Shown here: positions 44,530 to 48,674 of the stretch, piece after piece | Layout of the letters: the number at the start of each line of letters is the position of its first letter | Numbering within the stretch: position 1 is the first letter of the stretch | Assembly (NCBI GenBank): GCA_007694885.1 | Contig: REEW01000067.1 | Span: 1 to 48,804 of the forward strand | DNA: 48,804 bases | Direction: 5' to 3' | Source of the DNA: Wenzhouxiangella sp. | GTDB lineage: Bacteria; Pseudomonadota; Gammaproteobacteria; Xanthomonadales; Wenzhouxiangellaceae | Program-made: the position numbers and the translations under genes | The notes under the pieces: model-generated | The model's input: the letters and a program-made list of their open reading frames with translations, nothing else | What the model was told of the DNA's origin: nothing | Database searches by the model: none

Positions 44530-44970
44530 TCATCCCCGATCCTGGATAAGTCCGCGCCCGGAAAACGGATTGCTGATCACGACCTGGCCATAGCGTTGAC
44601 CATCGTTCAAGTCTTCGCTGTAGACGATGCCGGCACCGGCCAGCTCCGCGGCAGCGATCACGGCACCGTCCCAGTAGCTGATGCGGTATCGCTCGCTGAG
44701 CTCTGCGGCGACCTTGACCAGAGCGGCATCGATGCCAACGCACGGAAAGGCTTCCCACTGCTCGATCCATTCCATGGCCTGCAGGCTTGACAGCGGTTTT
44801 TCGAGTTTGCGCGTGACCGTGACGTAGAACTCCTGAAGTATCTGAGCGGAGAGCGCGAACTCCTCGCGTTCGATCAATGTCAGTGCGGCTTCACGCTTGT
44901 GGGCCTCGTCCGGGTCGGCGGTGACGGCGTAAACCAGTACGTTCGTGTCGAGAAAGCTGTCAACGATCAT
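44530..44970 (-). CDS. PIN-domain ribonuclease toxin (VapC-like)
   Basis: This 146-residue protein begins MIVDSFLDTNVLVYAV, placing the first PIN aspartate near the N-terminus. The acidic residues in LQEFYVTV, in SYWDGAVIAAAELAG and in YSEDLNDGQ complete a four-acid metal site. PIN toxins cut RNA. The start at 44970 overlaps the antitoxin gene by 11 bases; the longer frame reads back into it. No other toxin in the window shares this fold. Confidence 0.9.
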   Translation of the reverse strand: MIVDSFLDTNVLVYAVTADPDEAHKREAALTLIEREEFALSAQILQEFYVTVTRKLEKPLSSLQAMEWIEQWEAFPCVGIDAALVKVAAELSERYRISYWDGAVIAAAELAGAGIVYSEDLNDGQRYGQVVISNPFSGRGLIQDRG

Positions 44971-45190
44971 GCAGCTCGTCTCGGCGCCACTTTGCTGAAC
45001 CGATAAGAGCCTCTGAGGCCTCACTCAATTCGCGGATTCGACGGCGCGCGAGCGCAGCCCGATCCTGATGTTCAGCCAGCCGAGTCAGGTGTTCGCGCAC
45101 CATCGCATTGACTGTCGTGCCCTGATCGGCCGCCACTCGGCGCACCGCCGCCAGCACCTTCTCTTCGATACTCAAGGTGATGTTTTTCAT
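44960..45190 (-). CDS. Ribbon-helix-helix antitoxin of the PIN toxin
   Basis: This 76-residue protein has an Arc/MetJ-type N-terminus (MKNITLSIEEKVLAAVRRVAADQG, then TTVNAMVREHLTRL) with the beta strand ITLSI that would read DNA, and a charged C-terminal tail that would bind the toxin. ATG at 45190; a GTG at 45196 is possible. No Shine-Dalgarno sequence is visible. TAGACT lies six bases upstream of the ATG on the minus strand, so transcription may start at or near the ATG. Confidence 0.85.
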   Translation of the reverse strand: MKNITLSIEEKVLAAVRRVAADQGTTVNAMVREHLTRLAEHQDRAALARRRIRELSEASEALIGSAKWRRDELHDR

Positions 45191-45192
45191 AA

Positions 45193-45207
45193 ACACAGTC
45201 TATGTGT
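45193..45207. promoter_or_regulatory. Dyad at the RHH-PIN promoter
   Basis: ACACA and TGTGT flank GTCTA, giving a perfect dyad directly ahead of the antitoxin ATG. More TGTGTG copies continue to about 45217. RHH antitoxins usually bind such arrays to autoregulate, so this is a likely operator. The remaining gap to 45386 shows no gene. Confidence 0.55.
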
Positions 45208-45412: not shown

Positions 45413-45419
45413 CGTGGTG

Positions 45420-45647
45420 ATGAGCAAAAAATTGAAGGTGACCGCGATCGGCAATTCGACCGGCGTGATTCTGCCCAGGGAGTTGCTGGAAAAGCTCCGG
45501 GTCAGCCGGGGTGATGAGTTGATGGTCCACGAGACACCGGACGGCATCCTGCTCAGCCCGTTCGACGCCGAGTTTGCCCGGCAGATGGATGTGGCCGAAA
45601 AGATCATGCGCGAGGATCGTGATCTGCTGAGGAAACTCGCGCAATGA
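45420..45647 (+). CDS. AbrB/MazE-fold antitoxin of the Doc toxin
   Basis: This 75-residue protein has an AbrB swapped-hairpin DNA-binding domain (KKLKVTAIGNSTGVILPREL) and a helical, acidic C-terminus. Doc toxins of phage P1 type are paired with Phd, a different fold, so this is an AbrB-Doc pairing. Its stop overlaps the toxin ATG as ATGA. Confidence 0.9.
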   Translation: MSKKLKVTAIGNSTGVILPRELLEKLRVSRGDELMVHETPDGILLSPFDAEFARQMDVAEKIMREDRDLLRKLAQ

Positions 45648-46068
45648 TCACTACAGAACCGATCTGGATTAGTGTGAATCTGGCGGAAGCCATTCATCGG
45701 CGCCAGCTGGCCGAGCATGGTGGGCCGGGAAGTGTGCGTGATCAGCCTGCGCTGGAATCTGCGCTCGCCCGACCGCGTCAGCGGTTCGCCTATGGAGATG
45801 AATCACTGCAATTGCCTGATCTGGCAGCCGCGTATGCGTATGGCCTGGCTCGCAATCACCCATTTGCCGACGGCAACAAGCGTACGGCCTACGTATTGTG
45901 TCGAACCTTTCTGAAACTCAATGGCTGGGATCTGGTGGGGAATCTGTCGGATCGCTATCCCGTTTTCCTTGCCCTGGCCGCCGGCGAACTGACCGAGCAG
46001 GCCCTGGCCGCCTGGCTGCGCGATCATGCCCGACCCGAACTGCTCAGCGAAGAATTGGCCGGCTACGG

Positions 46069-46072
<4 letters not shown>
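45644..46072 (+). CDS. doc: Doc (death-on-curing) Fic-fold toxin
   Basis: This 142-residue protein has the Doc form of the Fic motif, HPFADGNKRTA, in the HxFx(D/N)(A/G)NKR pattern of kinases that phosphorylate elongation factor Tu and stop translation. The opening half (LAEAIHRRQLAEHGG, then RDQPALESALARP) is also typical of Doc. The stop codon overlaps the metX stop codon on the other strand: the four bases TTAA at 46069-46072 serve both. Confidence 0.93.
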
Positions 46073-48473
<2,401 letters not shown>

Positions 48474-48475
48474 TC

Positions 48476-48510
48476 AAAAAACCCCGCATCGGTCAGGCCG
48501 CTGCGGGGTT
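48476..48510 (-). terminator. Intrinsic terminator in the metYX leader (attenuator)
   Basis: On the minus strand AACCCCGCA (48502-48510) pairs with TGCGGGGTT (48480-48488), followed by a run of six T. It lies after the leader frame and about 80 bases before metY, so it would stop transcripts that began at the leader promoter. The plus strand has no T-run, so it does not serve a plus-strand gene. Confidence 0.88.
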
Positions 48511-48544
48511 CGTCGGGTTCGGTATGGAGTTTCGGTTCAGTTCA

Positions 48545-48634
48545 TCAACGGAAACACGCACCAACTGGACGCCGCAGCTGAAGGCTCGGCATACACATGG
48601 TGCACATGCAGTTGTGGAGGAATACGAAACTCAT
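48545..48634 (-). CDS. Cys/Met-rich leader peptide of metYX (29 codons)
   Basis: An ATG at 48634 opens a 29-codon frame ending in TGA at 48545. Residues 9-15 read C-M-C-T-M-C-M (48590-48610), so six of seven codons call for cysteine or methionine; the whole peptide has four of each. A terminator follows 35 bases later and metY after that. GCTGCGG in the frame (48572-48578) is exactly complementary to CCGCAGC in the terminator's first arm (48500-48506), offering an antiterminator. No Shine-Dalgarno sequence is visible; the inferred transcription start lies only a few bases before the ATG. Ribosome stalling when charged tRNA-Cys or tRNA-Met is scarce would fit attenuation. The product has no expected function of its own. 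Confidence 0.72.
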   Translation of the reverse strand: MSFVFLHNCMCTMCMPSLQLRRPVGACFR

Positions 48635-48643
48635 GGGGGCGAA

Positions 48644-48674
48644 GTTTCACGGCACTTGACTGGATTTGTCAAGT
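48644..48674 (-). promoter_or_regulatory. Leader promoter and inverted repeat of metYX
   Basis: On the minus strand TTGACA (48667-48672) is a perfect -35; 17 bases on, TGAAAC (48644-48649) is a weak -10. An inverted repeat, ACTTGAC (48654-48660) and GTCAAGT (48668-48674), spans the -35 and spacer and is a likely operator. A divergent gene starts at 48733, so the site may serve both directions. Confidence 0.6.

Follow-up and report, generated by a model that had tools for sequence, protein, structure and literature searches.

A probable cysteine/methionine leader-peptide attenuator ahead of metY-metX in Wenzhouxiangella

Leader-peptide attenuation is textbook regulation, and in the trp, his, leu, thr, ilv, and phe attenuators of proteobacteria it is ribosome-mediated, with codons for the end product in the leader peptide. 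Polycysteine leaderless short ORFs of mycobacteria were reportedly described by Canestrari in 2020. Within the accessible text, the closest known counterparts of the element described here are leaders with Cys codons, which occur ahead of cysS in Rhodobacterales and ahead of operons in mycobacteria. The uORFC-8-2 motif of cysS in Rhodobacterales, which are alphaproteobacteria, has a leader ORF with Cys codons followed by an intrinsic terminator, as ours does, but, in the accessible text, it carries two tandem Cys codons and no Met signal, and its target is cysteinyl-tRNA synthetase (PMC8632094). The mycobacterial polycysteine leaderless short ORFs lie ahead of sulfur genes and mediate Cys-responsive attenuation, and thus share with our locus a leaderless short ORF, Cys codons, and sulfur genes, as far as the accessible text goes (PMC9031893). 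They differ in being actinobacterial and Cys only, and a paper with candidate mycobacterial peptides reports no conserved terminator hairpins for them (PMC1262725).

Control of methionine genes has been described for the metXZ RNA element of betaproteobacteria and for SamR of Xanthomonadales, and the former resembles our element in its proposed terminator/antiterminator on metX or metZ (PMC4239095, accessible part). The term "leader peptide" is missing from the main text of that paper, the comparison with the metXZ element being by description and not by sequence, while SamR differs in being a DNA-binding protein (PMC4239095). Methionine, whose codon doubles as the start codon of proteins, did not appear as an attenuation signal in a full-text literature search, which returned no Met-codon or Cys/Met leader-peptide attenuator, in line with the statement in the first-pass annotation that no Cys/Met leader peptide is known for metYX; subscription papers lie mostly outside such a search, and an earlier description is possible.

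The window analyzed here is the whole 48,804-nucleotide stretch of contig REEW01000067.1 from Wenzhouxiangella sp., whose genus is assigned to Wenzhouxiangellaceae, Chromatiales, in the NCBI taxonomy. The element lies on its minus strand. A -35 box (TTGACA, 48667–48672), which is TTGACA in 14 of 17 aligned leaders and TTGACC or TTGACT in the remaining three, is followed by a weak predicted -10 box (TGAAAC, 48644–48649) located 9 nt 5' of the ATG of the leader peptide ORF (48545–48634, ATG at 48634). This probably leaderless ORF encodes the 29-residue peptide MSFVFLHNCMCTMCMPSLQLRRPVGACFR, whose regulatory codons 9–15 (48590–48610) read Cys-Met-Cys-Thr-Met-Cys-Met. The end of the Cys/Met codons forms region 1 (48584–48592), which is the partner of 48569–48578 in a predicted 1:2 hairpin. 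Region 2 (GCTGCGG, 48572–48578), inside the leader frame, has two alternative pairing partners, region 1 and region 3 (CCGCAGC, 48500–48506), the latter in the first arm of an intrinsic terminator (48476–48510), a bulged GC-rich stem-loop with a run of six T at 48481–48476. The terminator is followed by metY (47070–48398), encoding O-acetylhomoserine/O-acetylserine sulfhydrylase (TIGR01326, 684.8 bits), with AAGGAG 5' of its ATG at 48398, and by metX (46069–47073), encoding homoserine O-acetyltransferase and overlapping the metY end; the match of the latter to TIGR01392 is 300 bits, under the model cut-off of 500. The first-pass annotation had proposed this arrangement: the TTGACA box, the 29-codon frame, and its C-M-C-T-M-C-M cluster at residues 9–15 were found where it had put them, the seven-base complementarity that it had noticed (48578–48572 versus 48506–48500) is exact, and the sequence together with the two TIGR matches agrees with its six-T terminator followed by metY-metX.

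A segment of seven residues with six Cys/Met occurs once among the 85,440 such segments of the six-frame translation of the window, namely in the leader frame, and the sole two segments with five overlap the same cluster. The predicted fold of the window leader RNA (-62.1 kcal/mol) is far more stable than those of shuffled sequences (mean -43.6, z -4.85, 0 of 200 shuffles as low). Neither the promoter nor the terminator of the window leader was detected by a simple consensus scan. An inverted repeat, ACTTGAC-N7-GTCAAGT, spans the -35 box at 48654–48674 and is also present, by eye, in L003 while absent from L004. Two toxin-antitoxin-like pairs are also found, at 45414–46072 on the plus strand and at 44530–45196 on the minus strand; from their motifs, we take one to be an AbrB-like protein with a Fic/Doc-like partner (HPFADGNKRT), and the other to combine a PIN-domain-like protein with a small partner encoded upstream of it.

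Like the trp, his, leu, thr, ilv, and phe attenuators, the metYX leader combines a leader peptide carrying codons for the end product, 1:2, 2:3, and 3:4 pairings, an intrinsic terminator, and a biosynthetic operon. Unlike them, it has Cys plus Met codons, seems leaderless, and precedes metYX, and its region 2 lies inside the frame, before the stop codon. What is new relative to the known attenuators is the Cys plus Met signal, the target, and probably the leaderless leader.

We scanned 50 upstream regions of metY-like genes found by protein searches in 50 genomes, which we assigned to numbered families (f1, that of the window, f4, f9, f11, and so on), L002 being the window itself. In 31 of them, belonging to eight families, we found a short frame that carries a Cys/Met cluster: all 16 regions of f1, all three of f4, all five of f9, all three of f51, and a single instance each in f186, f129, f159, and f166. 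The frame thus lies ahead of metY in every orthologue that we found in the window's family and in 15 more genes from seven other families, which is the comparison that the first-pass annotation had put forward. Outside the order of the window, the frame was found in four of 10 non-self matches, in four families, among 369 genomes of the class, and in the order of one outside family (19 genomes) in all four matches, one of them already counted. The best eight-residue segment contains at least two Cys and at least two Met in all 31 leaders (on average 3.3 Cys and 2.8 Met in the first 24), and the order and spacing of these residues vary (NCMCTMCM, VMCMCMPG, MCCCMCMC, SMCCCMCM, and CMCMCMFM). Downstream of metY, a MetX-type motif was seen in 13 of 14 f1 loci (L003–L016, with none found in L014), in all three f4, all five f9, and three of seven f11 loci, and in L182–L184 but not L185.

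The Cys/Met frame was absent from the other 19 of the 50 upstream regions. These include all seven of f11, six in which metY, by reading, mostly comes directly after another coding frame (L186–L191), and six belonging to metY-like genes of only 52–56% identity. In f11 (L018, L019, and L168–L172), palindromes such as TAGACGTCTA lie at the metY promoter, in the place that the leader has elsewhere (six loci by script, the variant in L171 by eye); this palindrome may be where a SamR/SahR-like repressor has its operator. Our phylogenetic tree of 32 MetY rows, from which L023, L021, L022, and L025 were left out and which carries a long-branch warning, showed f1, f4, f9, and f11 each as one group, with no resolved branching order among them. 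L181 (metY N-terminus missing) and L147 (a second cysB piece) were excluded from reading, a sixth f9 metY gene without a start was left out of the f9 count, and the start of the match was substituted for the metY start in L184, L185, L187, and L190, where the script did not detect one.

The best predicted -10 box ends 6–11 nt before the leader ATG in all 17 aligned leaders, a count made without a chance control. The distance is 7–9 nt in L166, L167, L183, and L184 and 6–8 nt in L182 (first ATG) and L192–L194, and no promoter at such spacing was predicted in L185, so that 25 of the 26 leaders outside f9 have a -10 box within 6–11 bases of the ATG. Matches to the Shine-Dalgarno sequence before this ATG amount to at most two of six in the window and to one to four in the others. 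Because of the position of the predicted -10 box, the leader is probably leaderless, and the promoter predictions lead us to expect a transcription start at or a few nucleotides from the leader ATG.

As for the coding signal, the pN/pS ratio of frame 0 was 0.45, 0.72, and 0.45 in three groups versus 0.87–1.24 in the other frames, but over codons 1–20 of group B frame 0 was no better than frame 2 (0.92 versus 0.72). The frame-specific constraint, for which the first-pass annotation had suggested looking, is thus modest. The f9 leaders provide the stronger argument for coding, since they have the same Cys/Met density with another base composition (GC 36–41% versus 64% in the window) and another downstream structure. 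The last Cys codon of the cluster is TGT in all 17 leaders of f1 plus L017, with TGC predominating among the Cys codons before it.

Single-sequence folds predict a 1:2 hairpin over the regulatory codons that competes with the antiterminator. The antiterminator, which would exclude the terminator, has its exact seven-base complement in the window and double changes in relatives, and the intrinsic terminator lies between the leader ORF and metY in the window and in f1; the T-run after the stem is missing in two f4 leaders, and the GC-rich terminator hairpin is missing in f9. We examined covariation in 22 leaders from f1, f4, f51, f129, and f159 (alignment A4, without L185, which has no GCGG core, and without L192–L194, found later). 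The six-pair core of the 2:3 helix was 90.2% paired and the terminator stem 95.5%, each with seven cells changed on both sides, a number reached in none of 500 shuffles that ignore relatedness. The number of 2:3 pairs with a double change, which was two, was not above the shuffles (251 of 500 reach it), and the outermost 2:3 pair was unpaired in 13 of the 22 leaders. In a sliding control, which keeps relatedness, 24–69% were paired, with at most one doubly changed cell for 2:3.

An ungapped script reading of the helix showed G-C/C-G, C-G/G-C, U-A/C-G, and G-C/A-U exchanges at pairs 1, 2, 3, and 8, with pair 1 unpaired in five rows and pair 2 in four. At column 92, an A-to-G change in the terminator arm is matched by a U-to-C change in the leader in L007, L008, L017, L166, and L167; in L007, L017, and L167, the other terminator arm has changed from U to C as well. 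At column 87, a C-to-U change is accompanied by G to A in both partners in two f4 rows (L166 and L167). The leader segment and both terminator arms thus covary in some families, as would be expected for two mutually exclusive hairpins, through few independent events. Against shuffled leaders, the 2:3 complementarity had a mean z of -2.4 over 17 leaders, the match in L017 being no better than its own shuffles (z -0.1).

The placement of a ribosome was modeled crudely, without kinetics, as a cover of 28 nt with the second terminator arm not yet made. In 16 of 17 leaders, the terminator arm was more sequestered with the ribosome at the Cys/Met codons than at other codons, L017 being the one that scored lower. 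This contrast is mainly with the codons after the cluster, since those before it score high too. In the window, the sequestered fraction was 0.87 with the ribosome at the Cys/Met codons and 0.08 both with it at the last four codons and without any ribosome. The last-four-codon value indicated a clear off state in the window, L004, L006, and L023 (0.03–0.22), while it was 0.44–0.94 in the 13 other leaders; without a ribosome, seven of 17 leaders (including L004) were at 0.65 or above, that is, antiterminated. In the folding comparison suggested in the first-pass annotation, the on state is thus predicted at the Cys/Met codons in 16 of 17 leaders, and the off state is clear over the final codons in four of 17.

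In the mechanism that we envisage, the metYX transcript would begin at the leader AUG or very close to it, and a ribosome would load without a Shine-Dalgarno sequence. With ample Cys-tRNA and Met-tRNA, it would pass the Cys/Met codons, 1:2 would pair behind it, 3:4 would pair, and RNA polymerase would stop at the U-run. Under a shortage of either charged tRNA-Cys or charged tRNA-Met, the ribosome would stall on the cluster and cover region 1, so that 2:3 would pair, no terminator would form, and metYX would be made.

No Rfam match, whether to a SAM/SAH riboswitch, a T-box, or another family, was found at the window leader up to an E-value of 5, and 18 related f1 and f4 loci gave no riboswitch at the Rfam gathering threshold, but just one tRNA, so that a known riboswitch, which was to speak against attenuation, was found in none of them. 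The SAM-I riboswitch (RF00162), absent from the window leader, adjoins the Cys/Met leader in f9. It scored above threshold in four of five f9 loci (56–67 bits), the fifth being interrupted by an N run, and lies on the 5' side of the leader ORF in L175, L178, L179, L180, and L174, roughly 200–530 nt upstream of metY. In four of these loci, the aptamer ends 7–9 nt before the leader ATG, and its closing helix therefore abuts or overlaps AAAGAGAG, a Shine-Dalgarno-like sequence and likely the ribosome-binding site of the leader. SAM may thereby decide whether the leader is read, perhaps by blocking its translation. Downstream of the leader stop in L174, L175, L178, and L179 lies a conserved segment, GATTTTCAGGC-ATTGCTGA, capable of forming hairpins, while L180 differs.

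Short Cys-rich frames (e.g., MFKQNAMVCICMCLPPPRRVVC and MNHYTNMCKCCNCPQTRRRVV) were also observed upstream of cysB in f8, in 10 of 14 loci read (L133–L139, L141, L142, and L144). Behind every one of them come a GC-rich hairpin and a T-run, detected by script in seven and by eye in L133, L135, and L136. From their sequences, these frames are likely a cysteine attenuator of cysB. At least two Cys are present in all 10 of them and at least two Met in two, so that Cys is kept and Met rarely, indicating that Met tracks the methionine operon. In the family of the window, no Cys leader with a terminator was found ahead of cysB in the 14 of 16 loci with a start; at the cysB loci L155 and L156, small Cys frames are present but no terminator accompanies them. 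Other short frames with a terminator were seen as well: Asn-rich frames (e.g., MSIRLATAVNNNRNNLRANNRARPMRDCALGR) in L071, L072, and L074 (f2), ahead of what we guess to be asparagine synthase; a Cys-rich frame, MKLFMPRVIRSAGNCCCPCACVRGEHVEAMAG, in L070 (f12), ahead of a gene that we take to be TonB-receptor-like; and MNLFGSRSLTTSSMPITMCMRTRVDRGLA in L063/L132 (f4), a possible Thr/Ile/Met leader, ahead of a presumably homoserine-dehydrogenase-like gene.

A collection-wide search with an exact pattern, which is too strict for the families found later, gave 39 stretches, of which 13 are metY-type leaders, with records named as Wenzhouxiangella (nine) or gammaproteobacterial MAGs (four), and 26 were judged to be chance, among them L106, a short frame with M-C-M plus T4. 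A looser pattern gave 19 matches in 18 of 398 genomes of the order versus two for the reversed control; beyond known leaders it found L063/L132 and the f8 cysB leader, and L114, L116, L117, L119, L124, L130, and L131 were taken as chance matches. The model R1 at E ≤ 0.1 with strict filters found in the genome of the window just the metY leader and a reverse-strand match over its terminator. At E ≤ 0.1, it had a match in 210 of the 398 genomes of the order, and many of the 17 R1 loci inspected were terminators, tRNA, or gene ends. Four leader peptides searched matched no Pfam or NCBIfam family.

We estimate at about 0.75 the probability that the element is a ribosome-mediated transcription attenuator of metY-metX reading charged tRNA-Cys and tRNA-Met, and we are very confident that it works as a leader-peptide attenuator, whichever amino acids it reads. 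Sequence and comparison show that the leader frame is conserved and carries a Cys/Met cluster, and they also show the terminator, the alternative RNA pairings, and the operon; what we infer is leaderless initiation, stalling, and dependence on both amino acids. Frame conservation, covariation, and folding with a placed ribosome strongly support the Cys/Met reading of the first-pass annotation, to which the probable leaderless start, the spread of the design beyond the order, and its position behind a SAM-I riboswitch in f9 are additions. It counts against this reading that severe methionine starvation would hinder initiation as well. The attenuator may instead read a single amino acid, the other residue being a mere passenger of the ATGTGC hexamer repeats or of the 1:2 RNA pairing, which we consider unlikely but deserving of real weight, since most known attenuators read one amino acid or one group, and since the ATGTGC repeats are nearly invariant in f1 and part of the 1:2 hairpin. 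Such hitchhiking does not sit well with the presence of both residues, at least twice each, in 31 of 31 leaders of varied order and spacing, with their retention in f9 leaders that lack the f1 RNA structure, or with the cysB leaders, which lose Met and retain Cys.

Peptides in which Cys and Met alternate can coordinate soft metals, and a nascent chain with so dense a cluster might sense a metal, the redox state, or a small molecule and arrest the ribosome; we regard this as improbable, given that spacing and order vary between families in a manner that fits the counting of codons and not a binding site, and that the operon controlled is one of sulfur amino-acid synthesis. An RNA element, whether a riboswitch or a protein-bound switch, with an incidental reading frame would account for the strong, alternative, and covarying RNA structures and has a parallel in the SAM-I aptamers upstream of the f9 leaders, but the want of Rfam matches in the window leader and the 18 f1 and f4 loci, together with the persistence of Cys/Met coding where the RNA structure does not persist, makes it very improbable. 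We give hardly any credence to a chance short frame in the region of a terminator that merely ends an upstream transcript: short frames are common, and the consensus scan found neither promoter nor terminator, but recurrence in eight families and covariation speak against chance.

Because this tiny Cys/Met gene recurs in several families, its translation very probably reports a shortage of sulfur amino acids. A wider view, which we hold tentatively and at a little under even odds, is that a leaderless Cys/Met peptide serves as a sulfur sensor throughout the gammaproteobacterial class with interchangeable hardware, either a U-run terminator downstream or an element upstream of the leader, and that SAM gating in f9 turns it into a switch with three inputs, namely Cys, Met, and SAM. 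The f9 arrangement is a direct test case for a riboswitch gating a leader peptide, and the recurrence of the leader in eight families, with a palindrome as its substitute in f11, is a natural experiment on swapping the regulation of one operon. A leader that reads Cys on the substrate side and Met as the product would act as a small logic gate in the allocation of sulfur.
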